DNA from: Candidatus Hebobacterum abditum
GTDB lineage: Bacteria > Armatimonadota > Hebobacteria > Hebobacterales > Hebobacteraceae
Direction of reading: 5' to 3'
Assembly (NCBI GenBank): GCA_029821875.1
Contig: JALGXW010000014.1
Location: 1 to 64,000, forward strand
DNA length: 64,000 bases
Shown here in pieces: positions 5,073 to 54,568 of the stretch (position 1 is its first letter; each line of letters opens with the position of its first letter). Under the pieces are notes generated by a model. The model worked only from the letters and a program-made list of their open reading frames with translations, made no database searches and was not told the origin of the DNA. The position numbers were made by a program, and so were the translations under genes.

Positions 5073-5174
5073 GGCTGACCTCCCTGAGACGGCAATTGCC
5101 CTATCGTACCACACAAGGCCCGTTGGACAGAGGCTTGCCCCGCCCAACGGCCGGCGGGCGTTGGTGCGCCCGCC

Positions 5175-7232
5175 CTACAGCCCGAACGCCCTCGCCACGT
5201 ACACCGCCATCTGGTCGCGGGTGACGACGAACTCGGGGTGGTAGAGGCCGTCGAGGTAGCCCGCCACCACGCCATTCTCGACACAGTACTCAACGTGCCG
5301 GTAGGCCCAGAAGTCAGAGGCCACATCGGGGAAGTTCCGCGGATCGGCGGGCACGTAGTCGGCCAGGGCCGCCTCGCCGGTGGGCGCGACCAGGGCGCGG
5401 GCCACATAGACGGCCATCTGGTCGCGGGTGACCTCATACTCGGGGTGGTAGCTGCCGTCTTCGTAGCCGGCAACGACGTTCTGGGAGACGGCGTACTCCA
5501 CGTAGTCGAGCGCCCAGGACGCCTCCGACACATCGGGGAAGGTCGGCGTGTCGGTGAACTCGGGCACGTTCTCATCCCCACCTGCCAGGGCGCGGGAGAT
5601 ATAGACCGCCATCTGATCGCGGGTGACGGCGATCTCGGGATGGTACAGCCCGTCCCCGTAGCCCGCGACGATGCCCGCGTCCACACACCCCTTGATGGCC
5701 TCGTAGGCCCAGAAGTCGAGAGGCACGTCGGAGAAGATCTCCGTACGCCCCACGGGGATGTCTCTGATCGTGATCTGGTGGCTGACCGGAACACTGCGAT
5801 GTGTCACCACACTACCATCGGGAAACAGCACCCGCACGCTCACCACCGTCGAGCTGCCGACCCCGAAGTGCGCCACCTGTTCGTTCTGGCCCAGCCACCC
5901 CGATCCGCCGTCAATCAACCGCGCCAACGTCCTGTGTCCGGCGGTCGGGAAGCTGTCATCATTGTCCAGATTCAGTTCGACGCGAGCGCCGATGGCATCC
6001 CGGACAGGGCCGCCGCCCGTCGCGTCTCCCGTACCGCTGGTTAGTGTGCGCACGCGGAGCCAGTTGCCCGCGGGGCCCACATTGCGGAAGAGGTGCGACC
6101 ATGAATGCGAAGCCTCGGCCTGGAACAGGTCGAGGCGGCCGTCGAGATCGATGTCGGCCCAGATCGCCGCATTCCTCTGGTACACGCCCTCCAATCCAGA
6201 GCCATAGGCGACATCGGTGAAAGTGCCGTCCCCATCATTGTGATGAAGAAACGGGTCACGATCCAGGTTGCCCACAAAGAGATCGACCCAGCCGTCGTTA
6301 TCGTAGTCTGCCCAGGCCGCCGGCACGCTGATCGCTGAGTCGCTCGCCATGCCAGCGGTGGCACTGACGTCGGTGAACGTGCCGTCCTGGTTGTTGTGGA
6401 AGAGGTAGTCTCGCCTGCCGGATCCAGTGGCGGACATGTTCGTGGTCAGGAAGCAGTCGAGCCAGCCGTCGTTGTCGTAATCAGCCCAGATCGCGGCCGC
6501 ATTGTCGAGCGCTACGCCGATGCCGGAGTGAGCGCTGACATCAGTGAACGTGCCGTCGCCGTCATTGTGGAAGAGCATTGCGAGCTCGTTGTTCCGGGCG
6601 ATGACGAGGTCAGGCCATCCGTCGTTGTCATAGTCTCCCCAAGATGCAGACATGCCCGCGTCGGAGCTCATCCCGGATACGGCCGAGACCTCAGCGAATG
6701 TCCCGTCGCCATTGTTGCGCATCAGGTAGTTCATGCCAAGGTTTGAGCAGAAGGCGTCGAGCAAGTTGTCACCGTTGTAGTCGCACCATGCCGCGCTTCG
6801 CCCGGCGATCAGAGCCACGCGGAAGCCAGCACTCTCCCCCACCTCGACGAATCCTGTCTCGTCCTGCTGGAAAAGCACCGGATAGCCGGCACCACAGGCA
6901 ATCAGCAGGTCCAACAGGCCGTCGTTGTTGTAGTCCGCCCAGGCGGGACCGTCACGCTCTGTGGCGTCCAGAGGCAAGCCGAGCGACGCACTGACACTGG
7001 TGAACGTGAGGTTGTGATTGTTCCGGAAGAGCAGAGCGCCTGCCTGAGGTGCAGTTCCGGCAGTGACGAACAGGTCCGCGTACCCGTCGCCATCGTAGTC
7101 TCCCCAGGCGGCGCCCGCGCCAGAGGGGATGGTCTGAGAGATGATCTCATAGAAATCCGCGGCAGTAGCCGGCATGGCCAGTCCGAGCGCGAATAGGATC
7201 AGCAGCGAGGCGATCATCCATCCGGCTGTCAT
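5175..7232 (-). CDS. FG-GAP/ASPIC-UnbV propeller protein with three SLH domains
   Basis: Predicted secreted surface protein of 685 residues. The start MTAGWMIASLLILFALG follows CCAAGGAGGTGGCTGCG; an upstream ATG at 7298 lacks an SD. After the signal peptide come about seven FG-GAP/VCBS repeats (GDYDGDGYADLF, ADYDNDGWLDCF and similar), calcium-binding-type DxDxDG loops that build an integrin-alpha-like propeller. An ASPIC/UnbV domain follows (about 385-480: GARVELNLDNDD to FPDGSVVTHRSV), then three SLH repeats (about 500-685). Adhesion or binding to a surface glycan or particle is the usual proposal for this architecture; the ligand is unknown. It is a close paralogue of the gene at 9122-11179 with the same domain order and length. 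Confidence 0.9.
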   Translation of the reverse strand: MTAGWMIASLLILFALGLAMPATAADFYEIISQTIPSGAGAAWGDYDGDGYADLFVTAGTAPQAGALLFRNNHNLTFTSVSASLGLPLDATERDGPAWADYNNDGLLDLLIACGAGYPVLFQQDETGFVEVGESAGFRVALIAGRSAAWCDYNGDNLLDAFCSNLGMNYLMRNNGDGTFAEVSAVSGMSSDAGMSASWGDYDNDGWPDLVIARNNELAMLFHNDGDGTFTDVSAHSGIGVALDNAAAIWADYDNDGWLDCFLTTNMSATGSGRRDYLFHNNQDGTFTDVSATAGMASDSAISVPAAWADYDNDGWVDLFVGNLDRDPFLHHNDGDGTFTDVAYGSGLEGVYQRNAAIWADIDLDGRLDLFQAEASHSWSHLFRNVGPAGNWLRVRTLTSGTGDATGGGPVRDAIGARVELNLDNDDSFPTAGHRTLARLIDGGSGWLGQNEQVAHFGVGSSTVVSVRVLFPDGSVVTHRSVPVSHQITIRDIPVGRTEIFSDVPLDFWAYEAIKGCVDAGIVAGYGDGLYHPEIAVTRDQMAVYISRALAGGDENVPEFTDTPTFPDVSEASWALDYVEYAVSQNVVAGYEDGSYHPEYEVTRDQMAVYVARALVAPTGEAALADYVPADPRNFPDVASDFWAYRHVEYCVENGVVAGYLDGLYHPEFVVTRDQMAVYVARAFGL

Positions 7233-7352
7233 CGCAGCCACCTCCTTGGAGGCGAGGCGGAGAGCGTGACTCAGCATGAATCCCCCCGAGGATGTCACGA
7301 CGTACTAGTCCCGCTTATTGTATCACAGGTCCGCCCGACCCTTGGAACGCGC

Positions 7353-9121: not shown

Positions 9122-11179
9122 CTATCCCGTTAACCCAAACGCCCTCGCCACGTACACCGCCATCTGGTCGCGGGTGACGACGAACTCGGGGTGGTAGAGG
9201 CCGTCGAGGTAGCCCGCCACCACTCCGTTCTCGACACAGTACTCAACGTGCCGGTAGGCCCAGAAGTCAGAGGCCACATCGGGGAAGTTGCGCGGGTCAG
9301 CCGGCACGTAATCGGCGAGGGCCGCCTCGCCGGTGGGCGCGACCAGGGAGCGGGCCACATAGACGGCCATCTGGTCGCGGGTGACCTCATACTCGGGATG
9401 GTAGGTGCCGTCTTCGTATCCGGCAACGACGTTCTGGGAGACGGCGTACTCTACGTAGTCGAGCGCCCAGGACCCCTCCGACACATCGGGGAACGTCGGC
9501 GTGTCGGTGAACTCGGGCACGTTATCGTCGCCGCCTGCAAGTGCGCGGGAGATGTAGACCGCCATCTGATCGCGGGTGACGGCGACCTCGGGGTGGTACA
9601 GCCCGTCCCCGTAGCCCGCGACGATGCCCGCGTCCACACACCCCTTGATCGCCTTGTAGGCCCAGAAGTCGAGAGGCACGTCGGGGAAGATCTCCGTGCG
9701 CCCCAAAGGAATGTCTCTGATCGTGATCTGCCGGTTGGCTGGGACACTGCGGTGTGTCACCACACTACCATCGGGAAACAGCACCCTCGCGCACACCACC
9801 GTCGAGCCGCCCAGACCGAAGTGCGCCACCTGTTCGTTCTGGCCCAGGAATCCAGAGCCGCCGTCGATCGTGCGCGTCAGCGTGCGGCCGGATGGGAAGG
9901 CGTCGTCGTTATCGAGATTGAGTTCGACGCGAGCGCCGATGGCGTCGCGCACAGGCACCGCCGGATCAACCGCGTCTCCGGTGCGGCTCGTGAGCACACG
10001 CACTCGCAGCCAGTGACCGACTGGACCTATGTTGTGGAAGAGAGCAGACAGCGGCCCCCCGACCCCACTGAAGAGGTCCATGCGTCCGTCCAGGTCCATG
10101 TCGCCCCAGATCGCGGTCTGGTTGGGTCGGCTGCCGCCGACGCCGGCCATCTCTGCGACATCCGTGAAGGTTCCGTCCCCGTTGTTGTGATAGAGGAAGG
10201 GCTGGTTGTACGTGTTGACGTTGCCCACGTAGAGATCGAGCCATCCATCATTATCGTAGTCAGCCCAGGCTACTCCGACGCCCATGTGATCGTCGTCGGC
10301 CATGCCGGCCGTCGCCGCAACGTCGGTAAACGTCCCGTCGCCGTTGTTGTGAAAGAGCCAATCGCGTGCCAACGCGGCCGCGGACAGATAGCAGTCGAGC
10401 CAGCCATCGTTGTCGTAATCCCCCCAGGCGACCCCAAAGGTATCGCTTGCCACGCCCAGCCCCGCTGCTATTCCGACCTCGGTGAAGGTGCCGTCTCCGT
10501 CGTTGTGGTAGAGCATGGGCCTTTCGCCCCTGCGACTGAGCACGAGATCCGCCCAGCCGTCGTTGTCGTAGTCGCCCCAGGAGGCGGACTGTCCGGCGTT
10601 GCTCGGAGCCATGCCCGACGCGACGGACACCTCGGTGAACGTTCCATCGCCGTTGTTCTCCATCAGATAGCCCGGGCCGAAGATATTCGCGCAGAAGGCT
10701 TCGAGCAGATTGTCTCCGTCGTAGTCACACCAGGCCACACCTCGGCCCGCGCTGAACGAGACATGGAACCCGGCCGCCTCGCCGACCTCGAGGAACTGGG
10801 CTTCGTCGCGCCGATACAGCCTCGGATATCCCGCGCCTGAGCCGACCAGCAGATCGAGATCGCCGTCGTTGTCGTAGTCGGCCCAGGCCGCCCCATCCTG
10901 CTCTTCTTGCTCGGAGGGGAAGCCCATTGCCGCACTCACATTGGTGAAGCCGGCAATATGGCTGTTGCGCAGAAGCATCGGACCGTGGCCTGACGGCCCC
11001 ACATTGGCAGCGAGGAAGAGGTCCGGATAGCCGTCCCCGTCGTAGTCGCCCCACGCCGCCCCGTTCGCACCAGGTATGCTCAGCATGGGTGCGATGTCCT
11101 GGAACTGCTGCGCCTCCGCGGCCGTAGCCGCGCAGCAGACCATGGAGAGAACTAGGAGCCCTGCCAATCCGCATCTCAT
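9122..11179 (-). CDS. FG-GAP/ASPIC-UnbV propeller protein with three SLH domains (paralogue)
   Basis: Secreted protein of 685 residues. The start MRCGLAGLLVLSMVCC lies 8 nt after GGGAGG and replaces an SD-less codon at 11245. Layout matches the gene at 5175-7232: signal peptide, FG-GAP repeats with DxDxDG loops (GDYDGDGYPDLF, GDYDNDGWADLV), ASPIC/UnbV domain (GARVELNLDNDD) and three SLH repeats. Similarity in the last third is nearly exact at nucleotide level, whereas the propeller blades have diverged. That fits a fixed anchor with a varying display module. The signal peptide and SD region resemble those of the TolB-like gene at 7353-8951, which suggests mosaic assembly of this cluster. Confidence 0.9.
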   Translation of the reverse strand: MRCGLAGLLVLSMVCCAATAAEAQQFQDIAPMLSIPGANGAAWGDYDGDGYPDLFLAANVGPSGHGPMLLRNSHIAGFTNVSAAMGFPSEQEEQDGAAWADYDNDGDLDLLVGSGAGYPRLYRRDEAQFLEVGEAAGFHVSFSAGRGVAWCDYDGDNLLEAFCANIFGPGYLMENNGDGTFTEVSVASGMAPSNAGQSASWGDYDNDGWADLVLSRRGERPMLYHNDGDGTFTEVGIAAGLGVASDTFGVAWGDYDNDGWLDCYLSAAALARDWLFHNNGDGTFTDVAATAGMADDDHMGVGVAWADYDNDGWLDLYVGNVNTYNQPFLYHNNGDGTFTDVAEMAGVGGSRPNQTAIWGDMDLDGRMDLFSGVGGPLSALFHNIGPVGHWLRVRVLTSRTGDAVDPAVPVRDAIGARVELNLDNDDAFPSGRTLTRTIDGGSGFLGQNEQVAHFGLGGSTVVCARVLFPDGSVVTHRSVPANRQITIRDIPLGRTEIFPDVPLDFWAYKAIKGCVDAGIVAGYGDGLYHPEVAVTRDQMAVYISRALAGGDDNVPEFTDTPTFPDVSEGSWALDYVEYAVSQNVVAGYEDGTYHPEYEVTRDQMAVYVARSLVAPTGEAALADYVPADPRNFPDVASDFWAYRHVEYCVENGVVAGYLDGLYHPEFVVTRDQMAVYVARAFGLTG

Positions 11180-11314
11180 CCCACTTGCCTCCCTTGGGGA
11201 GCACAGAGAGCGAGACCCGGCCTGAATATCCCCCGAGGATGTCACGACGTACTGACCGCGCTCATTCTATCACAAGTCCGGCCGAACAGGGGGCTCACTC
11301 GGCCCGTTCGCCTG

Positions 11315-41510: not shown

Positions 41511-41780
41511 CGGAAGCCGTCCTCCCGCCAGTCCAGACGCGGCACACCGCCCAATGGTTTGCCTTCGGAGGCGGGAGGCAGACATCCTACTGATGGACGG
41601 CCAGGAGCCCCCCAGGCGCGACCCGGTCGCGTTGCCGACTGAGGCGGAGAATTGGCGGCAGGGGGGCTGGAGGCAGTGGCGAAGGGTGGTCAGTGGGACC
41701 GAGGTCCGGAGTGCTCTTTCCCTGAGTCGGGCCCAGCAGCACCGTGCCTTGCGCGGGACTATGGTGTAAAGGGGAGCCAA

Positions 41781-43715
41781 ATGGACACACGCCGATCGCT
41801 GGTCGGTTTCGTCCTCTCCGTCGTTCTCTGCCTCTCGGGGGCGGCCGTCGCCCGTGGCCAGGGGGGGCCCGTTCTCGCGGTCAGCACCAACAGCCTCGAT
41901 CTCGGGATCATCGGCGGCGCCACAAGCGACAGCTCTGTCTACGTCTACAACGCCGGCAGTGGGTGCTTCAGCTGGCTCATCGCGGACACGGAGGAGTCCT
42001 GGCTTACGGTTGAGCCGGCGGAGGGCAGCGACACCTACACATGCGAGGAAGACGACTACCTCCTGATCCAAGTTGACCCTTCCGGCCTCGGCGGCGGCCC
42101 GGAAAGCGGCTCGTTCCAGGTGCGCCGGCCAGGCGGCGGCGGCTTCTCCGAGACCATCACGGTCAGCTTTGACTATCAGGCGCCCACTGGGCTCGAGGTC
42201 AACAAGACCAATGTGAATCTCGGGGCGATCACCGGGCCTGTCGCCGACGACTCCGTCTACGTCTACAACGCGCCGCCCCCCGCGTCTATCAGTTGGACGG
42301 TGACCGAGAGCGTTGCCTGGCTTGCGGTGAGCCCGATGTCGGGCACGACGACAACGGGGCAAGACACCCTCACCATCACGGTGGACCCCACGGGGCTCAC
42401 GGCCGGGCAGTCCTACAGCGACAGCTTCACGGTGACTCGGGATGGCGCGCCGAGCGACTCGGCGACCGTGACCGTGGACTTCACCTTCAAGAACTCGATC
42501 GGGATTTCGGTCAGCGGGACGCCGCCCTCGGGGCAGAAGGCCGGAAGCATCTCTGTCGCCGGGGCGGCGGCCTGGTACCACTTCGACGTCCCGGCCGGGG
42601 ACACGAAGCTCTGGAACCTGTGGACGGAGGTCGGCGTCGACACCGTCCTGGGGCTCTACACCGCAGTGGACGGGACGCTCCTGGCCGAGAACGACAACTG
42701 CGATGCGGGGGCGTGCGGCCTCGACCATTCTCCGCTTCACTCCAGGATCGACTATGACCTGAGCGGCGGCACGCGCTACTACCTGAAGGTTGAAGCCTTC
42801 GGCAGCGCCGCCGGCGATTACACGGTCCACGTGCGAGAGCAGGCGAACACGCCGCCCGAGCTGACCAACGGCAGCCTTACGCCTGACTCCGGCGATGACA
42901 CGACCACATTCACCTACTCGGTGGACTACTACGATATGGACGGCGATGCCCCGGCGACGAAGGAGGTCGTCATAGACGGCACGCCCTACCCCATGGCCCT
43001 GCAGAGCGGCGATGCGTATGACGGGACGTACCGGTACCAGACGACCGGCGCCGACCTCGGCATGGGCGATCACACCTACTACTTCTCCTTCACCGATGGT
43101 GAGGGAGGGACCGCCCGGCTGCCAACCTCAGGCACGGAGTCCGGCCCCACGGTGACCATCGAGTTCCCGGATGTTCCCGTCACCTTCTGGGCCTACGATG
43201 AGATCCAGGGCTGCGTCATGGGCGGCGTCGTGGGCGGCTACCTGGATGGCTACTACCACCCGGAGTTGCCGGTATCACGGGACCAGATGGCGGTCTTCGT
43301 CGCCCGCGCCCTCGAAGGCGGTGACGCCAATGTCCCCGACGGGCCGGCCGTGGCCACCTTCAACGACGTGCCCACCGACCACTGGGCCTACAAGTACGTC
43401 GAGTACTGTGTGCAGGAGGGCATCGTCGCGGGCTATGACCCCGTGACCTACGCGCCGACGGTCGCCGTCACCCGAGATCAGATGGCGGTCTACATCGCCC
43501 GCGCTCTTGCCGGCGGCGAGAGCGGCATTCCCAGCGGGCCGGTCATCCCGCACTTCAACGATGTTCCCGCCGGGACCTGGGCCTACAAGCACGTCGAGTA
43601 CTGCTACAGCCAAGAGGTCGTGGCTGGCTACCTGGACGGCCTCTACCACCCCGAGTACATCGTTACCCGCGACCAGATGGCCGTCTACGTCGCGAGGGCG
43701 TTCGTGACGCCGTAA
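41781..43715 (+). CDS. Secreted BACON-repeat and PPC-like protein with three SLH domains
   Basis: Protein of 644 residues. The ATG at 41781 follows AAAGGGGAGCCAA; a signal peptide ends near ARGQ (residue 26). Two BACON-type domains follow (about 30-120 and 122-225: SVYVYNAGSGCFSWLI..., VAWLAVSPMSGTTTTGQDTL). Then come a PPC-like domain (about 230-330, AAWYHFDVPAGDTKLW, DLSGGTRYYLKVEA), an Ig-like domain with an xxDMDGDxP loop (about 335-455), and three SLH repeats (about 460-644). BACON and PPC domains occur in secreted enzymes and glycan-binding proteins. No catalytic domain is present, so a binding or structural role is likely. Confidence 0.9.
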   Translation: MDTRRSLVGFVLSVVLCLSGAAVARGQGGPVLAVSTNSLDLGIIGGATSDSSVYVYNAGSGCFSWLIADTEESWLTVEPAEGSDTYTCEEDDYLLIQVDPSGLGGGPESGSFQVRRPGGGGFSETITVSFDYQAPTGLEVNKTNVNLGAITGPVADDSVYVYNAPPPASISWTVTESVAWLAVSPMSGTTTTGQDTLTITVDPTGLTAGQSYSDSFTVTRDGAPSDSATVTVDFTFKNSIGISVSGTPPSGQKAGSISVAGAAAWYHFDVPAGDTKLWNLWTEVGVDTVLGLYTAVDGTLLAENDNCDAGACGLDHSPLHSRIDYDLSGGTRYYLKVEAFGSAAGDYTVHVREQANTPPELTNGSLTPDSGDDTTTFTYSVDYYDMDGDAPATKEVVIDGTPYPMALQSGDAYDGTYRYQTTGADLGMGDHTYYFSFTDGEGGTARLPTSGTESGPTVTIEFPDVPVTFWAYDEIQGCVMGGVVGGYLDGYYHPELPVSRDQMAVFVARALEGGDANVPDGPAVATFNDVPTDHWAYKYVEYCVQEGIVAGYDPVTYAPTVAVTRDQMAVYIARALAGGESGIPSGPVIPHFNDVPAGTWAYKHVEYCYSQEVVAGYLDGLYHPEYIVTRDQMAVYVARAFVTP

Positions 43716-43757
43716 CACAGCGGTGCTCCGCTGCGCAGAGGAGCAGGTCGACTATCC

Positions 43758-43789
43758 GCGGGCCCCGCCGCGAAGCTGGCGGGGCCCGC
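43758..43789 (+). terminator. 12-bp GC-rich terminator hairpin
   Basis: GCGGGCCCCGCC and GGCGGGGCCCGC with an 8-nt loop, 43 bp after the BACON-SLH stop. No T-tract, so it may act with Rho or only stabilise the mRNA end. Confidence 0.7.
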
Positions 43790-43833
43790 AGCCATTGGCC
43801 GCCCGGCCCATCGGCGCACTCAGTATATGGAAG

Positions 43834-44064
43834 GTCTCCATCTGCGACCCGACGGGAGAAGACGGCCTGGCCGACTGCATCCCGGCCGACCCGCGGGACT
43901 TCCCCGATGTGGCCTCCGACTTCTGGGCCTATACACACATCGAGTACTGCGTCGAGCACGAAGTGGTGCAAGGATACGAAGACGGCTACTGCCATCCCGA
44001 ATACGACGTGACCCGCGACCAGATGGCGGTCTACGTGGCGAGGGCGTTCGACTTGGCGCTGTAG
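43834..44064 (+). pseudogene. Orphan SLH cassette remnant, copy 1
   Basis: About 77 codons encode the end of an SLH cassette: a linker CDPTGEDGLADCIPADPRDF, then FPDVASDFWAYTHIEYC and YEDGYCHPEYDVTRDQMAVYVARAF, and a stop. It lacks a start, signal peptide and the first two SLH repeats, yet its reading frame is undamaged. It follows the terminator of the BACON-SLH gene and looks like a leftover or donor of cassette exchange. Confidence 0.75.
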
Positions 44065-44114: not shown

Positions 44115-44525
44115 TCACCTGGGGGAGGCGGCGATTTCGTTGGCGAGGGCCCGACGTTCCTGCTCTGAGGCGAGGAGGAGGCGGCGCAGGACATAGGGGA
44201 CGAGGATGACCACCACCGCGACTTCCACGCCAGTCTCGATTGGGAGCGGCAGCAGTCGCAGGGCCAGGCTCATGATGACGAGGAGGGGCGCAATCCACGC
44301 CACGTGAGGGCGAGGCCCGCGGAGGCGCTGCGGGATCTCCACCCGCGGCTGGAACACAGCTTCCCGGGCGTGAGCCTTCAGGTCATCGTCCAGCCGCGCC
44401 AGTTCCTCATACTCGCGGCGGAGCGCCGGATCGTCGGCGATTGCCTGGCGGACCTCAGCGGCGCGGGCGGGGGTCAGCTCGCCGTCGAGCAGAGCCGAGA
44501 GTTCGGAGGGGTCAATTCGTGTCAT
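44115..44525 (-). CDS. Anti-sigma factor-like membrane protein
   Basis: Protein of 136 residues with LSALLDGELTPARAAEVRQAI at the N-terminus (residues about 9-30). This matches the start of anti-sigma (zf-HC2/RskA-type) domains, although the zinc-binding H-x3-C-x2-C is missing. Two membrane helices are predicted (about 72-90 and 95-115). Its ATG overlaps the stop of the ECF sigma gene by 3-4 bp, so it is surely translated with it and probably holds that sigma factor at the membrane. The short loop between the helices (PIETG) leaves little sensor domain outside. Confidence 0.82.
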   Translation of the reverse strand: MTRIDPSELSALLDGELTPARAAEVRQAIADDPALRREYEELARLDDDLKAHAREAVFQPRVEIPQRLRGPRPHVAWIAPLLVIMSLALRLLPLPIETGVEVAVVVILVPYVLRRLLLASEQERRALANEIAASPR

Positions 44526-45046
44526 CTGGGTTCCCTTTCAGAGATCGCGACCAGGGCCCGGCGCGCCGCATGGAGGCGCGACATCACGGTTCCGACCGGG
44601 ATCCCAAGGGCGGTCGCGATCTCCTGATAGGAGCAGTCGCCGAAGTAGCGGAGTTGGATGATCTCCCGGTGCTCGGCGCTGAGCTGGCCGATCGCCGAGC
44701 GGAGCATGTCCCTGCGCTCGGACTCTTCCCACGCGGACTGGTCGCCGGCGGGCAGATCGGCGGCATCGACCGCGATGCTCGGGGGCCGACGGGCGCGACT
44801 GCGCTGGATATCGCGGCAGCAGTTGCGGACGATCGCGAACCACCAGGCCTTGAACCCCCGCGAGCGGTCGTATCGCGCCAGGCCGCGGTGCGCCTTCAGC
44901 AGAGCCTCCTGGATGGCGTCCTCCGCGTCTTCTCGGTTCCCCAGTAAAGAATGCGCATAGGCCGCCGCCCGGCCGAGCAGCGGCTCGGCCAGACGGTGCA
45001 GCTCATCGTCAGCCTGCTGCGAGCGTTGGCTCACGGGCCAGTCCAT
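44522..45046 (-). CDS. ECF RNA polymerase sigma factor
   Basis: Sigma factor of 174 residues, normal ECF length. Region 2 at about 20-90: LLGRAAAYAHSLLGNREDAEDAIQEALLKAHRGL and FKAWWFAIVRNCCRDIQR (landmarks, quoted in part). Region 4 at about 120-168: AIGQLSAEHREIIQLRYFGDCSYQEIATALGIPVGTVMSRLH. It is SigE/RpoE-like. It is coupled by stop/start overlap to the anti-sigma-like gene downstream. The DUF4190-like gene at 45063-45371 lies immediately upstream on the same strand (16 bp), so the three may be one operon. Confidence 0.9.
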   Translation of the reverse strand: MDWPVSQRSQQADDELHRLAEPLLGRAAAYAHSLLGNREDAEDAIQEALLKAHRGLARYDRSRGFKAWWFAIVRNCCRDIQRSRARRPPSIAVDAADLPAGDQSAWEESERRDMLRSAIGQLSAEHREIIQLRYFGDCSYQEIATALGIPVGTVMSRLHAARRALVAISEREPR

Positions 45047-45062
45047 GCCGAGGACTCCCAGT

Positions 45063-45371
45063 TCAGGAGAGCGCCTCGAGAGCGGAGATGAAGGCCCCCA
45101 CTTGCTCTCGGAACACGATGATCAACACGATAAACGCGACCTCGAAGGTTATTGCCAGGATCAATGCCGCGCCTCCGAGTCGTCTCGCACGACTCCCCTG
45201 CCGAGCCCCCTGCATCGCCAGAGCTCCGAGAACGATGGCCACCACGGCCTTCTCGATCCCGAGCAAACTCACGAAGGTGACGATGCCGACGACGATGGCC
45301 GCGATGCCGAAGCCATCCCGACGTCCGGCGATGTACATGTCATCCGGCTGTTCCCGATGAGCTTCTGCCAT
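45063..45371 (-). CDS. Small two-helix membrane protein (DUF4190-like)
   Basis: Protein of 102 residues; ATG at 45371 after GAGAGGGAAAGG, preferred to an in-frame codon at 45428. The sequence has two hydrophobic helices (about 22-45 and 65-90) separated by an Arg/Gly-rich loop (MQGARQGSRARRLGG), in the style of DUF4190. It is 16 bp upstream of the ECF sigma gene on the same strand. Function unknown. Confidence 0.72.
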   Translation of the reverse strand: MAEAHREQPDDMYIAGRRDGFGIAAIVVGIVTFVSLLGIEKAVVAIVLGALAMQGARQGSRARRLGGAALILAITFEVAFIVLIIVFREQVGAFISALEALS

Positions 45372-45581
45372 GGACGTATCCTTTCCCTCTCGCAAGTTGA
45401 GTGGGAGGTCGGCCTCCCATATAGCCATACGGACAGCGATCCCGGTTTATTCGCTGACCCGTCAGATTCCGGGCCTGGAGCGAGAGACCGGGCCGCGGCA
45501 GATCATTCGCAAGCCGTGGGAGATGGCATATGCCGGCGGCAGATGTGGCCCAGTTGCCCCCAGGATGCCTCAAAAACGGCC

Positions 45582-45610
45582 TTGACACAGGCGGGGAACT
45601 ATGCTATAAT
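45582..45610 (+). promoter_or_regulatory. Consensus sigma-70 promoter of arsR
   Basis: TTGACA (45582-45587), 17-bp spacer, TATAAT (45605-45610). This is the best promoter in the window. The expected transcription start (about 45617) is at the arsR ATG (45618), so the mRNA may be leaderless. Confidence 0.88.
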
Positions 45611-45626
45611 TCGAAACATGTCGAAT
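45609..45626 (+). promoter_or_regulatory. Putative ArsR operator
   Basis: Inverted repeat ATTCGA-N6-TCGAAT that overlaps the last two bases of the -10 box, the transcription start and the arsR start codon. Binding there would block polymerase and could explain arsenic-dependent derepression. Inference from position and symmetry. Confidence 0.7.
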
Positions 45627-45995
45627 ATTCTCACGGACAACCTGCAGCGCTCTGCGGGCATGTTCGGGGCCCTCGGCAACCCCAACCGGCTCCGCATCTT
45701 CCTGCGGCTCATGTCGTGCTGTGGGCCGGAGGCGCCGGGCCTAAGCGAGGAGCAGGCGACCGCCTTCGTGGGTGAGCTCGGCAAGGACCTGGGGATAGCC
45801 GCCTCGACGGTGTCCCACCATATAAAGGAACTGCACCGCTCGGGCCTCATCCAGATGGAGAGGCGCGGACAGAGGGTGGCGTGCTGGGTGGATCGTGCGA
45901 CCTTGCGGGAGCTCTCGGAGTTCTTCTCACACCAGCTCGATAGGCAGCCGTCGTGTTCCTGTCGGCCGACTTCGGGAGCTGCCGAATCATCTTAA
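45618..45995 (+). CDS. arsR: ArsR/SmtB-family metal(loid)-responsive repressor
   Basis: Winged-helix repressor of 125 residues. The HTH reads FGALGNPNRLRIFLRLM and LGIAASTVSHHIKELHRSGLIQMERRGQRV (partly quoted), with the typical TVSHHIKEL recognition helix. A Cys pair in MSCCGPE follows helix 1, and a CSCRP motif ends the protein; thiols in such places bind As(III) in arsenic-type ArsR proteins. Family members release their operator when metal is bound. It heads an operon with arsM, 12 bp downstream. The start could be the leaderless ATG used here or an internal Met near 45660. Confidence 0.88.
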   Translation: MSNILTDNLQRSAGMFGALGNPNRLRIFLRLMSCCGPEAPGLSEEQATAFVGELGKDLGIAASTVSHHIKELHRSGLIQMERRGQRVACWVDRATLRELSEFFSHQLDRQPSCSCRPTSGAAESS

Positions 45996-46007
45996 CGGAG
46001 GCAAGAA

Positions 46008-46829
46008 ATGAGCAAGCAGACACATGACGATATCCGCCAGGCCGTACGCAAGGCCTATGGCGACATCGCGAAATCGGGAGGCGGGTGCTGCGGTCCAGAG
46101 CAGTCCTGCTGTGACCCGTCGCAGTCCTGTGGCGGGGAGGTGAGCGGTCGCCGCCCGGCCGACGCGGCGGCGGCCATTGGCTACTCCGAAGACGATCTCT
46201 CGGCCGTGCCGGAGGGAGCGAATATGGGCCTGGGGTGCGGCAACCCGCAGGCGATCGCTTCTCTTCGTCCTGGCGAGACGGTGCTCGACCTCGGCAGTGG
46301 CGGCGGCTTCGATTGCTTTCTCGCCGCAGAGGCTGTGGGCGAGAGCGGCCATGTCATCGGCGTCGATATGACGGCGGAGATGGTGACAAGGTCCCGGGAG
46401 GCGGCGACGAAGGCAGGAGTCGACAACGTCGAGTTCCGCTTAGGTGAGATCGAGCACCTGCCCGTTGCAGACGAGACCGCAGACGTGATCATCTCGAACT
46501 GTGTGATCAACTTGTCGCCCGACAAGGTGAGCACGTACCGGGATGCCTATCGCGTCCTGAAGCGGGGCGGCCGTCTCGCCATCTCCGACGTGGTCGCCAC
46601 GGCAGAGCTGCCGGAGGAGATCAAGGCCGATCTGGCTCTCCACGCGGGCTGCATCGCGGGCGCGGCCACAGTGGAGACGCTCGAGCGCCTGCTGGCCGAA
46701 GTCGGCTTCGAGAACATTCGCATCGACATCAAGGAGGAGAGCCGCGAGGCGATCCGGCAGTGGCTGCCCGGCCGAGGGCTGGAGGACTACATCGCTTCTG
46801 CGACCATCCAGGCGGAGAAGCCGGCTTAG
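46008..46829 (+). CDS. arsM: Arsenite S-adenosylmethionine methyltransferase
   Basis: Methylates As(III) to mono-, di- and trimethyl arsenicals using SAM. 273 residues with SD AACGGAGGCAAGAA. The SAM-binding motif I is ETVLDLGSGGGFDCF (about 92), motif II VIGVDMTAEMV. The three catalytic cysteines of ArsM enzymes can be placed in GLGCGNP, ISNCVINLSPDK and HAGCIAGA. A Cys-rich N-terminus (GGGCCGPEQSCCDPSQSC) is also typical. Twelve bases after arsR and transcribed with it. Part of a likely arsenic detoxification operon running to 48152. Confidence 0.95.
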   Translation: MSKQTHDDIRQAVRKAYGDIAKSGGGCCGPEQSCCDPSQSCGGEVSGRRPADAAAAIGYSEDDLSAVPEGANMGLGCGNPQAIASLRPGETVLDLGSGGGFDCFLAAEAVGESGHVIGVDMTAEMVTRSREAATKAGVDNVEFRLGEIEHLPVADETADVIISNCVINLSPDKVSTYRDAYRVLKRGGRLAISDVVATAELPEEIKADLALHAGCIAGAATVETLERLLAEVGFENIRIDIKEESREAIRQWLPGRGLEDYIASATIQAEKPA

Positions 46830-46906
46830 AGCATCGTGCAATCAGGCGGCCGTCGGTGGCCGCCCGCGCTGGATCCAAATGAGACATCAAGGAGAGGAGT
46901 CGAGCG

Positions 46907-47410
46907 ATGGCTGACGAGAAGTGCTGTGGCGCTGCCGCGCAGGACGAGAAGAGCGCTGGCTGTGAGACCATAGCCATTGAGAAGACCGGGAACACGTGCC
47001 CGCTGTGCGAGGACTATGCGGCCAGTCAGGCCTCGAAGCCGGTCGCCGTCATGTCGTGTGAGGGAGCATGTCTGCGCGGCGAGGTCGCGAGGCGGGCGGC
47101 GAACATACTGTGCCACGAACTGGCGCCGGAGAAGACGGCCCGCATCTGTCTGGGCGCGGCCTTCACGAAGGACACCGGCCAGAGGAACCTGGTCAGGAAG
47201 GCTCCTCGGGTCGTCGCGCTGGAGGGGTGCTTCATCGAGTGCGCCTCCCGGATGATGAGGGGAGCGATTCCCGGGCTTGAGGTACACGTGATCGCGGCCG
47301 ACAAGCTCTACGAGTTCGACCGGGATCTGTTCGGGGTTGACGAGATGTCGGAGGAGGAGATGACCTCCCATGCGCGCACGGTCGCGGAGAGCGTGGCCGA
47401 GCAGCTCTGA
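46907..47410 (+). CDS. DGC-domain putative zinc/thiol-binding protein
   Basis: Protein of 167 residues; ATG after AAGGAGAGGAGTCGAGCG. It has many cysteines: MADEKCCGAAAQ at the start, CPLCEDY, then the DGC-family core VMSCEGACLRGEVARRAANI, and ALEGCFIECASRM. DGC (PF08859-like) proteins are annotated as putative zinc-binding and often accompany metal genes; a role in carrying or sensing As or another thiophilic metal is inference from the Cys content and its place after arsM (77 bp). Confidence 0.82.
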   Translation: MADEKCCGAAAQDEKSAGCETIAIEKTGNTCPLCEDYAASQASKPVAVMSCEGACLRGEVARRAANILCHELAPEKTARICLGAAFTKDTGQRNLVRKAPRVVALEGCFIECASRMMRGAIPGLEVHVIAADKLYEFDRDLFGVDEMSEEEMTSHARTVAESVAEQL

Positions 47411-48460: not shown

Positions 48461-51283
48461 ATGCGACGGCTTTCAGGTTCTGCAGTCGTGATGCTCTTGC
48501 TGGCGGCGACGGCCGCCTACCCGGAGGAGGTCATCGAGGTCTGGCGGAGTCCGTTCGGAGTGCCCAGGTCCGTCTCAGTGAACCACAGCGACGGGTCTTG
48601 CTGGGCAGCAACGGGTGCCAGTGTCATGCACCTAGGAGCGGACGGAGAGACACTCAGCCAGACGAACGGCTTCTCTCTACCAGCCTCGCTCTCCGTCAAT
48701 CCCACCGATGGGTCCTGTTGGGTGGCTGACAGCGCGCTTCACCAGATCGTCCACCTGGCCGCGGACGGCACGGAGCTGTGGCGCGGGGGCGGCTACCTGA
48801 ATCCGAGTTCGGTCTCCGCGAATTCGGACGACGGCTCTTGCTGGGTCGCAGACTTGGGCAATGACCAAGTCGTTCACCTTGCCTCCGATGGCTCTGAGCT
48901 GTGGCGCGGTGGCTGGCTCAGCAGACCGTCCTCCGTTTCGGTCAACCCGACCGATGGCTCCTGCTGGGTGGCGGACCCAGGCCACGACAGTCTCGTCCAT
49001 CTGGCAGAGGACGGAAGCGAGCTATGGCGGGACGGGACCTTCAGTGAACTAACATGCGTGTCAGCGAATCCAGTGGTCGGCTCCTGTTGGGTGATTGACG
49101 AGCACAGTCAGGAGCTGACATATGTGGACGAGGACGGCACGAAACTGTGGTCGGTCTACTACGGGCTGCCGAAATCCGTCTCGGTCAATCCCTCCGATGC
49201 CTCCTGCTGGGTCGCCTATGGTTCATCCATTGCGCATGTGGCTGACGACGGAACCCAGCTCCTATCACAGGGAGGTCCCTACTGGGGCCCATGGGCGGTC
49301 GCGGTCAACCCCACTGATGGCTCCTGCTGGGTGGCAGATCGGAGCAACGATGAAGTGGTGCACCTGGCCGAGGACGGCACCACCCTCCCCGGCGGTGGCA
49401 AAGCGTTCGACTATCCTCGGGCTGTCAGCGTCAACGCCGCGGACGCGTCTTGCTGGGCGACAGATACAGGGAACCACGGGCTGGTGCATCTGGCCGAGGA
49501 CGGCACGGAGCTCTGGCGATACACCTTCGCGGAGGACAAGTACCCCAATCCTCTCTCGGTCAACTCCAGCGATGGCTCTTGCTGGGTCGTCGCGCTGGAC
49601 GTCATGTGGGACGTGACGGTGAAGTTCGCTGCCGACGGCACCGAGTTGTGGCGCAAGCACGACATCTGGGACGTCATGGCCGTCTCGGTGAACCCCACCG
49701 ATGGCTCCTGCTGGCTGACCGACCAGGGAAGCGGCGGCCTGGTCGTTCACCTACGGGAGGACGGGGTCCGGCTGCTGGAATATGAAGCGGGGAGCTTCTT
49801 CGATTCCGCCTCCGTCAACTCCGCCGACGGCTCCTGTTGGCTGGCAGGAGAGGAAGTGCTCCACCTCTCCGAGGACGGCACCGAGTTGTGGCGGAGCGGC
49901 GCCTTCGGCTACTCGTACTCCATCTCCGTCAGCCCAACCGATAGCGCGTGCTGGCTGGCAGAGACCGAGAACGACGCGATAGTACGTCTCGCGGAGGACG
50001 GCACCGAACTCTGGCGGGGCCTCGGCTTCGCCGGACCCGAGTCCGTTTCCGCCAACTCAAGTGACGGCTCTTGCTGGGTCGCCGACACGGACAACGACGA
50101 GGTGGTCCACCTGGCCCCGGATGGCGCCGAGCTGTGGCGAGGAGGTGGGTTCTCGGCTCCTCAATCTGTCTCGGTGAACCCAACCGACGGTTCCTGCTGG
50201 GTGGCCGACTGGGGCAACAGCCAGATCGCCCATCTCGCCATCACCGCCTATGAGCTCAACCTGGGCGGAGTCCACGGGGACATTGCGGTGGATGGGATGG
50301 TCCACGAACTGCCTTACGCGTTGATGGCCGACGTGGGAGCCACCGTCGCGCTGGAGGCTCTGCCCCATCCGTTCTACGAGTTCACGGGGTGGTCGGGCGA
50401 CCTCACTGGCACCGAGAACCCGACCATCGTCACCATGGACGGCGACAAGTCCGTGACAGCGAACTTCGCCATCATCCAGCACGTGCTGAGCCTCACGGGC
50501 GTGGGCGACGGCAGCGTCGCAGTGGACGGCGTCACTCACAGCCTGCCATGGTCGGGGCCCCTCGACGCTGGCACGGTGGTCGTCTTGGAGGCTGTGCCGG
50601 ACTACTGCTGGCTATTCGAATACTGGCTTGGCGACCTCACAGGCGACGTGAATCCTGTCAACGTGGAAATGCTGGGCGACTTGAGCATCGCCGCCAACTT
50701 CGCCTCGGCCGAGCGCTTCGGCGACGTCGAGTGCGGTCACTGGGCAATCACAGAGGTGGCGGCCTGCTGCGACGCCGGCATCGTCTCCGGATACGGCGAC
50801 GGGCTCTATCATCCTGAATGGCCAGTGACGCGTGATCAGATGGCCGTCTACATCGCCCGGGCCTTGGCCGACGGCGACGAGAACGTGCCGGAGTTCACCG
50901 ACACGCCCACCTTCCCCGATGTGCCGGGGGGATTCTGGGCGCTGAAGTACGTTGAGTACGCGGTCTCCCAGAACGTCGTCGCCGGGTACCAAGACGGCAG
51001 CTACCATCCGGAGTACCAGGTCACCCGCGATCAGATGGCTGTGTATGTTGCTCGTTCCATCTGCGACCCAACCGGCGAAGACGGCCTGGCCGGCTACACG
51101 CCGGCCGATCCGCGCAACTTCCCCGACGTGCCATCCGACTTCTGGGCTTACACGCACGTGGAGTACTGTGTAGAGAACGGCGTGGTCGAGGGGTACGAGG
51201 ACGGCCACTACCACCCCGAGTACACAGTCACCCGCGACCAGATGGCGGTGTACGTGGCGAGGGCGTTTGGGCTGGTTTCGTAG
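48461..51283 (+). CDS. 14-repeat GSCW propeller protein with InlB-like and SLH domains
   Basis: Secreted protein of 940 residues; ATG at 48461 six bases after AAGGGGG. A signal peptide (to about residue 22) and a short EEVIEVWRSPFG lead-in come first. Then 14 repeats of about 41 residues (about 35-595) follow the pattern SVNPTDGSCWVADxGNxxVVHLAxDGxELWRGGGF, an NHL/YncE-like propeller with one invariant Cys per blade. Two InlB B-repeat-like domains follow (about 597-750: FTGWSGDLTG..., FEYWLGDLTG...), and three SLH repeats end the protein (about 753-940). Fourteen blades equals two seven-bladed propellers. Ligand unknown. Confidence 0.88.
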   Translation: MRRLSGSAVVMLLLAATAAYPEEVIEVWRSPFGVPRSVSVNHSDGSCWAATGASVMHLGADGETLSQTNGFSLPASLSVNPTDGSCWVADSALHQIVHLAADGTELWRGGGYLNPSSVSANSDDGSCWVADLGNDQVVHLASDGSELWRGGWLSRPSSVSVNPTDGSCWVADPGHDSLVHLAEDGSELWRDGTFSELTCVSANPVVGSCWVIDEHSQELTYVDEDGTKLWSVYYGLPKSVSVNPSDASCWVAYGSSIAHVADDGTQLLSQGGPYWGPWAVAVNPTDGSCWVADRSNDEVVHLAEDGTTLPGGGKAFDYPRAVSVNAADASCWATDTGNHGLVHLAEDGTELWRYTFAEDKYPNPLSVNSSDGSCWVVALDVMWDVTVKFAADGTELWRKHDIWDVMAVSVNPTDGSCWLTDQGSGGLVVHLREDGVRLLEYEAGSFFDSASVNSADGSCWLAGEEVLHLSEDGTELWRSGAFGYSYSISVSPTDSACWLAETENDAIVRLAEDGTELWRGLGFAGPESVSANSSDGSCWVADTDNDEVVHLAPDGAELWRGGGFSAPQSVSVNPTDGSCWVADWGNSQIAHLAITAYELNLGGVHGDIAVDGMVHELPYALMADVGATVALEALPHPFYEFTGWSGDLTGTENPTIVTMDGDKSVTANFAIIQHVLSLTGVGDGSVAVDGVTHSLPWSGPLDAGTVVVLEAVPDYCWLFEYWLGDLTGDVNPVNVEMLGDLSIAANFASAERFGDVECGHWAITEVAACCDAGIVSGYGDGLYHPEWPVTRDQMAVYIARALADGDENVPEFTDTPTFPDVPGGFWALKYVEYAVSQNVVAGYQDGSYHPEYQVTRDQMAVYVARSICDPTGEDGLAGYTPADPRNFPDVPSDFWAYTHVEYCVENGVVEGYEDGHYHPEYTVTRDQMAVYVARAFGLVS

Positions 51284-51306
51284 CGCAACGCTGCACATCG
51301 CAGACC

Positions 51307-51329
51307 GGGCAGGAGGCAGGCTCCTGCCC
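51307..51329. repeat. GGGCAGGAG-N5-CTCCTGCCC hairpin
   Basis: Nine-bp perfect inverted repeat followed by CACGAA, right after the stop of the first 14-repeat gene. Member of the dispersed GGGCAGGAG family; may serve as its terminator. Confidence 0.7.
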
Positions 51330-51355
51330 CACGAAGCGAGGGAGTGACGTTTCTC

Positions 51356-51417
51356 CGCTGAGCTATCCCCTGAGTGACGACGGGTCGCGCTGAACGAACG
51401 CGCCTTGGGGCGCGTCT
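51356..51417 (+). promoter_or_regulatory. Conserved upstream element of propeller-SLH gene 2
   Basis: Paralogue of 48368-48430; hairpin ACGCGCC-TTGG-GGCGCGT at 51398-51415. Confidence 0.6.
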
Positions 51418-51454
51418 AGTGGCTAGTAACCTCAACGCAGGGAGGACGGCCCAG

Positions 51455-54400
51455 ATGCGGCGGCTTGCGGTGCTGGCGGCGGCCCTCCTTTGGCTCTCGG
51501 GGGCGACCCCCACGATCGCCGAAGAGGTCATCGAGGCTTATCGGAGCCCCTTCGGCACAGTGCGCTCTGTGTCCGTCAACCCCACCGACGGCTCTTGCTG
51601 GGTAGCGGCAGGCGGCAGCGTCATGCACGTGGCGGCCGACGGGACGATCCTCGGCCAGCACGGAGGCTTCAGCCGTCCCATAGCTGTCACGGTCAACCCC
51701 ACGGATGGCTCCTGCTGGGTGGCTGACTGGGGCAGCGGCGAAGTCGTGCACCTCTCGGCAGAGGGGGTGGCGTTGTGGCGGGGGGGAGGATTCGCCGGCC
51801 CCCGCGACATCTCGGTCAACTCTACCGATGGCTCCTGCTGGGCGGTCGACGTACTTGGCGGTGAAGTCGTGCACCTGTCAGAGGCTGGGATGGAGCTGTG
51901 GAGGGGGGGAGGGTTCGGCTGGCCCCTGTGTGTCTCGGTCAACCCCGCCGACGGCTCCTGCTGGGTGGCTGACGATGGCAACGGCCAGGTAGTCCACCTC
52001 TCGGCCGAGGGCGTGGAGCTGTGGCGCGGCGGGGGATTCTCCGGTCCCAGGGGTGTCTCGGTCAACCCTGCCGACGGCTCCTGCTGGGTGGCTGATAAGT
52101 GGAATGATGAGGTAGTGCACCTCTCCGCCGAGGGTGTGGAGCTGTGGCGGGGGGGGGGATTCGACAGGCCCAGCGATGTCTCGGCGAACTGGGCCGACGG
52201 GTCCTGCTGGGTGGCCGACTCCGAGAATCATCAGGTCGTGCACCTGTCGGCAGAAGGAATGGAGCTGTGGCGGGGCGGAGGATTCGACGATCCCACGGAC
52301 ATCTCAGTCGACCCCACCGACGGCTCCTGCTGGGTGGCCGACGATGGCAACGACCAGGTAGTCCACCTCTCGGCCGAGGGCGTGGAGCTATGGCGGGGGG
52401 GAGGGTTGGGTAGACCCAGCGATGTCTCGGTCAACCGGACCGACGGGTCCTGCTGGGTGGCCCACGGCACAGCCGACCAGGTGGTGCACCTCTCGGCCGA
52501 GGGGGCGGAGTTGTGGCGCGGCGGAGGATTCGACCGTCCCAGCGCTGTCTCGGTCAACTGGAACGACGGCTCCTGCTGGGTGGCTGACACCGAGAATTCC
52601 CAGGTCGTGCACCTCTCGGCCGAGGGAATGGAGCTGTCGCGGGCCGGGCCCTACACCTACAGCAACTTCGAAGCTCTCTCGGTCAACTGGAACGACGGCT
52701 CCTGCTGGGTGGCGTCCCTCATCCTCGGCCGGGTCCTACACCTGTCGGCAGAGGGGGTCGAACTGTGGCGGGGAGGAGAATTCGACGATCCCACGGGCAT
52801 CTCAGTCGACCCCACGGACGGCTCCTGCTGGGTGGCCGACTATGGCACCGACGAAGTCGTGCACCTGTCAGAGGCTGGGATTGAGCTGTGGCGGGGGGGG
52901 GGATTCAATTCGCCCTACGGTGTCTCGGTCAACCCTACCGACGGCTCCTGCTGGGTGGCCGACCGTGGTCACCACGAGGTCGTGCACCTGTCAAAGTCTG
53001 GGACTGAGCTGTGGCGAGGGGGAGGATTCTACTATCCCCGCAGTGTCTCGGTCAACCCCGCCGACGGCTCCTGTTGGGTGGCGGACTCCGGCAACGACGA
53101 GGTCGTGCACCTCTCTGCGGAGGGGGTGGAGCTGTGGCGGGGAAGGTCGTTCGACTACCCGGGCGACGTTTGCGTCGATCCCGGCGATGGCTCCTGTTGG
53201 GTGGCGGACACGCACAACCGCCAGGTCGTGCACCTGGTGGTGGTTCCGGACGTCGGCCCTGCGGCCGCCTTCACCGCAATCCCCACCGGCGGCGCGGCGC
53301 CGCTTACGGTCGAGTTCATCGACTTCTCCACCCGCGGCGTCGCCTCCTGGTCATGGGACTGCGGCGATGGCGGCACGTCGGCCGAGCAGCACCCGGTCCA
53401 CACGTACACGGCCTTCGGCAGCTACCCGGTCACCCTCACAGTGGCCGACGCCGACGGCTCCGACACAGAGACGAAGCTCGACTACATCACGGTGGGCCCT
53501 CTGCCGGCGGCCGATTTCGTCGGAGATCCGACCATCGGGGCAGCGCCTCTGACGGTGAACTTCAGCGATCTAACAACCGGTGGAGTGACCTTCTGGTATT
53601 GGGAGTTCGGAGATGGCGGCACCTCGACCGAACAACATCCGAGCCACGAGTACGCGGAGCCGGGCGTCTACACGGTGTCCCTCAGCATCTGGGGCCTCAC
53701 CGGATACGACACCTTGACCAAGACGGACTACATCTCGGTGCAGGCGCTCCCGCTGATCGGAGTCGCCTGCTGGCCCCCGAGGGGAACGGCGCCCCTCACG
53801 GTGGAGTTCCGAGATATGTCGAGCGGGGGAGCCGTCTCGTGGCAGTGGGACTTCGGGGATGGGTCCGTGTCCACCCAACAGAACCCGACCCACGTGTACG
53901 CCGAGCCGGGCAAGTACACGGTGAGCTTGACGGCGACGAGTGAATGGGGCAGCAGCACTCTTGTCTGCGAGGATCTGATCACCGTCGCATTCATCGATGC
54001 GCCCTTCGAGCACTGGGCCTGTGACGAAGTGTTGGCCTGCGTTTCCGCCGGCATCGTGGTGGGCTACCCGGACGGCCTCTACCGGCCCGACTGGGAGATC
54101 ACCCGCGACCAGATGGCCGTCTACATCGCCCGTGCCCTGGTGGTCCCGAGCGGCGAGGCGGCGGTCGCGGAGTACGTCGCGGCGGACCCGCAGAACTTCC
54201 CCGACGTCCCGGCCGATAACTGGGCCTACACGCATGTCGAATACTGCGCCGAGAACGGAGTGGTGGAGGGATACGAGGACGGGCTCTACCATCCCGGATA
54301 CGAGGTCACCCGCGATCAGATGGCGGTGTATGTCGCCCGCGCCATCGCCACACCCACCGGGGAGGCGGGCCTCGAGGACTACCTTCCCCGCTATCCCCGC

Positions 54401-54568
54401 AACTTCCCCGATGTGGCCTCTGACTCCTGGGCCTACACGCACGTCGAGTACTGTGTCGAGAACGGCGTCGTCGCCGGCTACCTCGACGGGCTCTACCATC
54501 CCGAGATCGTCGTCACCCGGGATCAGATGGCCGTCTACGTGGCGAGGGCGTTTAGACTAGCCATGTGA
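51455..54568 (+). CDS. 14-repeat GSCW propeller protein with three PKD and SLH domains
   Basis: Secreted protein of 1037 residues; ATG at 51455 after GGGAGGACGGCCCAG. Signal peptide (about 1-22), then EEVIEAYRSPFG and 14 repeats of about 41 residues (about 35-590) that are more uniform than those of the upstream twin: SVNPADGSCWVADDGNGQVV then HLSAEGVELWRGGGF. Three PKD domains follow (about 595-840), each with a WxWDFGDG- or WSWDCGDGG-type motif, then three SLH repeats (about 845-1037). It differs from its twin in the linker domains (PKD in place of InlB-like). The DNA repeats are 123 bp, so unit gain or loss by slippage is likely. Confidence 0.88.
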   Translation: MRRLAVLAAALLWLSGATPTIAEEVIEAYRSPFGTVRSVSVNPTDGSCWVAAGGSVMHVAADGTILGQHGGFSRPIAVTVNPTDGSCWVADWGSGEVVHLSAEGVALWRGGGFAGPRDISVNSTDGSCWAVDVLGGEVVHLSEAGMELWRGGGFGWPLCVSVNPADGSCWVADDGNGQVVHLSAEGVELWRGGGFSGPRGVSVNPADGSCWVADKWNDEVVHLSAEGVELWRGGGFDRPSDVSANWADGSCWVADSENHQVVHLSAEGMELWRGGGFDDPTDISVDPTDGSCWVADDGNDQVVHLSAEGVELWRGGGLGRPSDVSVNRTDGSCWVAHGTADQVVHLSAEGAELWRGGGFDRPSAVSVNWNDGSCWVADTENSQVVHLSAEGMELSRAGPYTYSNFEALSVNWNDGSCWVASLILGRVLHLSAEGVELWRGGEFDDPTGISVDPTDGSCWVADYGTDEVVHLSEAGIELWRGGGFNSPYGVSVNPTDGSCWVADRGHHEVVHLSKSGTELWRGGGFYYPRSVSVNPADGSCWVADSGNDEVVHLSAEGVELWRGRSFDYPGDVCVDPGDGSCWVADTHNRQVVHLVVVPDVGPAAAFTAIPTGGAAPLTVEFIDFSTRGVASWSWDCGDGGTSAEQHPVHTYTAFGSYPVTLTVADADGSDTETKLDYITVGPLPAADFVGDPTIGAAPLTVNFSDLTTGGVTFWYWEFGDGGTSTEQHPSHEYAEPGVYTVSLSIWGLTGYDTLTKTDYISVQALPLIGVACWPPRGTAPLTVEFRDMSSGGAVSWQWDFGDGSVSTQQNPTHVYAEPGKYTVSLTATSEWGSSTLVCEDLITVAFIDAPFEHWACDEVLACVSAGIVVGYPDGLYRPDWEITRDQMAVYIARALVVPSGEAAVAEYVAADPQNFPDVPADNWAYTHVEYCAENGVVEGYEDGLYHPGYEVTRDQMAVYVARAIATPTGEAGLEDYLPRYPRNFPDVASDSWAYTHVEYCVENGVVAGYLDGLYHPEIVVTRDQMAVYVARAFRLAM
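51565..53240 (+). repeat. Fourteen 123-bp coding repeats
   Basis: In-frame tandem repeats of about 123 bp within the second propeller-SLH gene, with a core such as GTCTCGGTCAACCCC and GACGGCTCCTGCTGGGTGGC. The equivalent array at 48571-50240 is older and more diverged. Confidence 0.85.

Follow-up and report, generated by a model that had tools for sequence, protein, structure and literature searches.

Two neighbouring SLH-anchored proteins of Ca. Hebobacteria with 14 NHL-type blades each and a probable organisation in seven-bladed rings

The propeller of PknD is six-bladed, and virginiamycin B lyase is an enzyme with a seven-bladed propeller. The archaeal surface-layer protein 1L0Q has a single YVTN-type ring and lacks SLH motifs. 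In the account of Jing et al. (2002), as it is cited in PMC2447325, the YVTN propeller of this protein is combined with PKD. Two propellers in one chain are known from WRAP, the C-terminal part of Npun_R6612 of Nostoc punctiforme (PDB 2YMU; PMC6805158, PMC9218822), whose 14 blades have been solved as two seven-bladed propellers (PMC6805158). The parent of the NHL designs is six-bladed (PMC6805158). The blade totals of WD40-like repetitive propellers peak at 7 and 14, with one additional 7+8 case (PMC9218822); thus, the principle of whole rings is already known.

The genes A and B described here lie next to each other in the window, the whole stretch of 64,000 nucleotides that was analysed (C87:1-64000 of a 4.3 Mb assembly with 103 contigs). 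The organism is an uncultured sediment bacterium of the Armatimonadota, Ca. Hebobacteria. Both products are likely to be SLH-anchored strings of seven-bladed NHL-type rings, in which the rings may present binding faces. They share one domain order, which consists of an N terminus that resembles a signal peptide when read by eye, a strand-like segment ahead of the blades (EEVIEVWRSPFG in A, EEVIEAYRSPFG in B), 14 blades, spacers and three SLH motifs (Table 1). Counted from the upstream GTG codons, the ORFs comprise 945 amino acids for A (GTG 48446) and 1064 amino acids for B (GTG 51374). The three SLH motifs (PF00395) in each protein, together with the signal peptide seen by eye, mark both as SLH-anchored. 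This agrees with the preliminary description, which had called them surface proteins with different linker domains: Pfam finds SLH in both, Flg_new_2 in A and PKD in B. The end point given there, 53240, corresponds to the end of the blade array of B and not to the end of the gene. A scan of the intergenic stretch between A and B for promoters and terminators gave nothing useful.

Table 1. Coordinates in the window of the features of genes A and B, and distribution of complete blade arrays over the own genome and its relatives
Feature	Position or location	Strand	Basis and remarks
Gene A; product exported, 14 NHL blades, two Flg_new_2 domains, three SLH motifs	48461..51283	+	ORF and translation, Pfam, repeat count; likely ATG start 48461, GTG 48446 also open
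A, blades 1-7, putative first seven-bladed ring	48557..49408	+	Repeat positions; presumed split after blade 7
A, blades 8-14, putative second ring	49409..50269	+	Repeat positions; presumed split
A, two Flg_new_2 (InlB-like) spacer domains	50333..50700	+	Pfam, two stretches; limits approximate
A, three SLH motifs	50717-50845, 50912-51040, 51119-51247 (overall 50717..51247)	+	Pfam and SLH motif scoring
Gene B; product exported, 14 NHL blades, three PKD domains, three SLH motifs	51455..54568	+	ORF and translation, Pfam, repeat count; likely ATG start 51455, GTG 51374 also open
B, blades 1-7, putative first seven-bladed ring	51554..52408	+	Repeat positions; presumed split
B, blades 8-14, putative second ring	52409..53242	+	Repeat positions; presumed split
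B, three PKD spacer domains	53255..53983	+	Pfam PKD_4, three stretches; limits approximate
B, three SLH motifs	54011-54118, 54197-54325, 54404-54532 (overall 54011..54532)	+	Pfam and SLH motif scoring
7 blades, own genome	C27 (two genes), C58, C102, C21, C33, C85
14 blades, own genome	A, B, C26, C27, C57, C10, C21
15 blades, own genome	two adjoining C22 genes
21 / 13 / 4 blades, own genome	C95 / C82 / C11
21 blades, relatives	G003
14 blades, relatives	five in G001
15 blades, relatives	G001, G002
7 blades, relatives	four in G001, one in G008

Reading of the repeats and a blade profile (14 matches in each protein) both confirm that A and B possess 14 blades each. The repeats are mostly 41 residues long, with a spacing of 38-43 residues in A and 39-43 in B, and the mean identity between the blades of an array is 52-64%. 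The GSCW motif, which had been described as invariant, is found in all 14 blades of B, but the blades of A show GSCW in 11 cases, ASCW in two and SACW in one; only the cysteine and the tryptophan are invariant across both proteins. Pfam assigns the repeats to the NHL family (PF01436; E 1e-10 in A and 1e-29 in B), with 41.4 bits for A and 101.1 bits for B at a curated cut-off of 20, and the best relatives of the blade among solved structures are Pizza6, PknD and TRIM71. Together with the structure model of A, these matches bear out the NHL-like repeat type as a four-stranded propeller blade. The virginiamycin B lyase family (PF24684), which matches weakly over much of both arrays, was rejected, with 39.7 and 37.5 bits versus a curated cut-off of 50.

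The blade profile was applied to all complete paralogues found in the own genome and to relatives; matches broken by insertions were scored as one blade after reading of the alignment, and genes truncated at contig ends as well as one gene with masked bases were excluded from the counts. The 19 complete arrays of the own genome have 7 (seven arrays), 14 (seven), 15 (two), 21, 13 and 4 blades, and the 13 arrays of the relatives have 21 (one), 14 (five), 15 (two) and 7 (five). Multiples of seven thus account for 26 of 32 complete arrays, some of which are orthologues and hence not independent; the six exceptions are the four 15-blade arrays and those with 13 and 4 blades. A quantogram of the totals has a peak at seven alone among periods 2 to 12, while binomial values for the totals ignore relatedness and are not readable as probabilities. 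A random scatter of repeat numbers, which would have spoken against a structural constraint, is therefore not what this survey of 32 arrays found. Totals of 14, 15 and 21 beside 7 exceed the size of one seven-bladed ring and lie at or near multiples of it, as in highly repetitive tandem propellers of the WRAP type. Register is kept across three genera in the 15-blade class and across two in the 21-blade class, and therefore both totals are taken to be real. The 13-blade array of C82 aligns with a 14-blade counterpart from the same-genus genome G001 in clear register with a shift of one blade, indicating that one blade was either lost or collapsed in the assembly. In a survey of 291 Armatimonadota genomes, five contained strong homologues of the propeller (E <= 1e-30), and these five belong to the same order.

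Some members deviate in other respects. A short complete gene of the own genome (C11, L042:2778-3584) encodes four blades and one SLH motif, and its signal peptide is nearly identical to that of the seven-blade gene of C33; it may have arisen by deletion, reflect repeats that collapsed in the assembly or encode a half-ring that forms dimers. The 15-blade loci comprise two neighbouring paralogues of the own genome (C22, L033:6948-12272) as well as L092 and L098. At L032:2283-5803 and L085:3188-6768, blade 1 in a tandem pair of seven-blade paralogues is interrupted by a long Cys-rich insertion, and of the seven GSCW cysteines three or four have been lost; the pair is kept in both same-genus genomes.

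The totals strongly favour the earlier suggestion that 14 blades equal two seven-bladed propellers; the position of the split itself is an extrapolation from them. In all complete arrays, strand c is the last strand of the final blade, and most arrays have a d-like strand ahead of them; a velcro-closed propeller is organised in this way. The array plan would be d-(a-b-c-d)n-1-a-b-c, in which the N-terminal strand can close the ring velcro-fashion. Seven blades would then form one ring, 14 two and 21 three, and the conserved 15-blade class would probably be 7+8. Structure prediction was carried out with AlphaFold2, for B from the single sequence (pLDDT 63, pTM 0.45) and for A from a three-row alignment (pLDDT 82, pTM 0.59, blades clear). 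Blades are seen in both models, where about four strands recur regularly in each repeat unit, but models from such shallow alignments do not settle the ring partition, and neither does a fold search with the B model. The 7+7 partition is thus deduced from the totals and the precedent of WRAP. A fold search with the A model ranks 2YMU first (E 1.7e-26), yet the rigid TM is just 0.38. A fold search against a viral structure library had no informative match.

Other ways of folding, such as one large ring of all 14 blades or unequal rings of 9+5 or 6+8 blades, have to be weighed here. Part of the A model agrees with the nine-bladed design Cake9 (TM 0.77, normalised by target length; rmsd 3.8), inspection of the array sequences revealed neither a linker nor a clear motif at the boundary between blades 7 and 8, and WRAP fragments can make rings of six to nine blades (PMC6805158). 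Moreover, those NHL propellers of solved structure that come nearest have six blades, which counts against a seven-bladed reading. However, no common total lies below seven, which is also the quantum of the series, free-standing seven-blade members exist (C33, C85, C21), and the 14 blades of WRAP are arranged as 7+7. These other arrangements are therefore considered improbable, and tandem whole seven-bladed rings very probably make up the extracellular part of A and B.

The equal totals of A and B could also be the legacy of one 14-blade ancestor that was copied often, in which case common descent would suffice and structural constraint would not be needed. Blade 1 is a conserved N-terminal cap in most 14-blade members, and orthologues from different genera are in register, so that some totals have been inherited. 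However, in a positional comparison scored against the column background and with blades 1 and 14 omitted, a blade of A resembles the blade of the same number in B no more than it resembles other blades (p = 0.81). Judged by this comparison, the blades of both proteins are out of register apart from the cap blade, and A and B do not represent a single inherited array that stayed unchanged. The arrays also differ in age. The same codon is used at identical residues at a rate of 0.449 in A, which is no higher than the 0.435 expected from codon usage, and A is thus an old array with synonymously saturated blades under purifying selection. In B, the rate is 0.724 versus 0.439 expected, and B was thus amplified or homogenised recently; the signature of recent amplification at synonymous sites that is typical of WRAP is present in B and absent in A. 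Homogenisation of B could have altered its total, and totals of 7 and 21 exist too, which also speaks against descent as the sole explanation. Within the arrays, similarity is raised only between neighbouring blades (offset 1), and no offset-7 similarity, the sign of a duplicated seven-blade block, was found; the 14-blade arrays did therefore not arise by recent doubling of such a block. Equal totals are due to descent for some pairs, but for A and B this is not simply so, and descent alone is an unlikely explanation of the shared 14. A and B differ in age and register and still both have 14 blades, which argues that whole seven-bladed rings are favoured. The presumed mechanism is that arrays grow, shrink and homogenise one blade at a time, and that selection keeps mostly those totals that close into complete rings.

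The cysteine of the GSCW motif starts strand b in the A model. In a tally of 438 blades, a few of which were counted twice since two contigs had entered the set by two routes, the column contains C in 369 blades, V in 32, A in 11, L in 9, I in 7 and other residues in 10. In NHL relatives from outside the order, 24 of 28 entries in the matching column are V, L or I; the column aligns with a valine of Pizza6, and a 15-blade paralogue (C22b) has kept its array with a cysteine in only one of 15 blades. Since the replacements are mostly V, A, L or I, the cysteine behaves as a small hydrophobic core residue, and these substitutions suggest that it is part of the core at the start of strand b. A ring of thiols, metal sites or inter-blade disulfides had been proposed instead. 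The conservation of the cysteine in most blades and its restriction to this order would fit such a function, but the mainly aliphatic substitutes and relatives and the paralogue with a single cysteine contradict it. In addition, full disulfide pairing is impossible in seven-blade members with seven cysteines, since this number is odd, and equivalent residues of adjacent propeller blades should sit too far apart for a disulfide. Such a role of the thiols is thus extremely improbable. A core cysteine would be tolerable in an anaerobe, where a buried free thiol might be harmless. The organism is probably anaerobic; Ca. Hebobacteria is a class described from anoxic sediments (PMC10290634).

In B, the variable sites are those on either side of the loop proline, in the d-a loop, and those of the b-c loop. 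For both loops together, pN/pS is 1.26 if pS is pooled over the blade (bootstrap 1.12-1.40) and about 0.87 against local pS, and positive selection is therefore not demonstrated; the other 33 blade positions are constrained (pN/pS 0.26). The d-a and b-c loops share one face of a propeller. Variation in loops of one face suggests that the rings present binding faces on the Flg_new_2 or PKD spacers. In view of the SLH anchors and the stalk-like spacers, a non-enzymatic role in surface recognition appears to be the most likely function, with adhesion, glycan binding or partner binding as candidates, and about as much can be said for this assignment as against it. The main rival is that proteins of the A/B type are structural subunits of an S-layer or matrix rather than binders. 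The SLH anchors are compatible with this, as are the many SLH genes elsewhere in the genome (150 motifs scored) and the solved archaeal surface-layer protein 1L0Q with its propeller and PKD. However, the 19 paralogues are divergent, vary in the loops of one face and differ in their spacers; they resemble a repertoire and not one lattice protein, so that a structural role is doubtful. More broadly, the family might tentatively be viewed as a surface recognition repertoire that is diversified by blade-level amplification and gene conversion, with selection admitting almost only whole-ring totals; the natural 7/14/15/21 series would then reflect ring closure that limits repeat number, and the lineage-specific cysteine core would be tolerated in an anaerobe.

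Additional propeller types are encoded in the window. Twin SLH proteins of 707 amino acids (5175-7298 and 9122-11245, both on the - strand) possess FG-GAP and ASPIC/UnbV propeller domains, and an SLH protein at 2718-5147 has a weak PD40 match, indicating that SLH anchors carry more than one type of propeller in this organism. Just after the SLH gene 41652-43715, a small separate ORF (43723-44064) encodes a solitary SLH fragment and looks like a gene remnant. On the - strand, the stretch 44115-45046 encodes an ECF-type sigma factor (44522-45046) followed by a small membrane protein, which may be its anti-sigma factor. The region adjoining A (45045-47410) is likely an arsenic locus and encodes an ArsR-like regulator (by eye), a methyltransferase with a Cys-rich N terminus (Methyltransf_31, 46008-46829) and a DGC-domain protein (46907-47410).

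Compared with the known systems, A and B resemble WRAP, with its recently amplified blades, in having 14 blades in one chain, and 2YMU is the structure closest in fold to the A model. WRAP, however, is of the WD40 type, has near-identical blades and is located on a STAND ATPase, whereas the proteins described here are of the NHL type, exported and SLH-anchored, and their blades are more divergent. In blade sequence and strand pattern they are similar to the NHL-repeat propellers (PF01436) of PknD (1RWI), TRIM71 and the Pizza6 designs; unlike the six-bladed single rings of PknD and Pizza6, the unit here is seven, and a cysteine takes the place of the aliphatic residue of strand b. Virginiamycin B lyase is an enzyme, whereas A and B give no sign of being one. 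Like 1L0Q, B is a surface protein that joins a propeller with PKD, and its PKD region matches 1L0Q, which however is archaeal, while A and B are bacterial and carry SLH motifs. A search of the literature library for NHL repeats, SLH and propellers together found no paper. New are the SLH-anchored family of the NHL type, the occurrence of the 7/14/15/21 series in a single genome, and the cysteine core that is specific to the lineage. The family provides a natural data set on changes of repeat number, with 19 paralogues of mostly 7, 14, 15 or 21 blades in a single genome, in-register orthologues from other genera, and neighbours that differ in the age of amplification and have the same total. 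It thereby extends the peaks at 7 and 14 of WD40-like propellers to an S-layer-anchored family of the NHL type whose best solved relatives are six-bladed.
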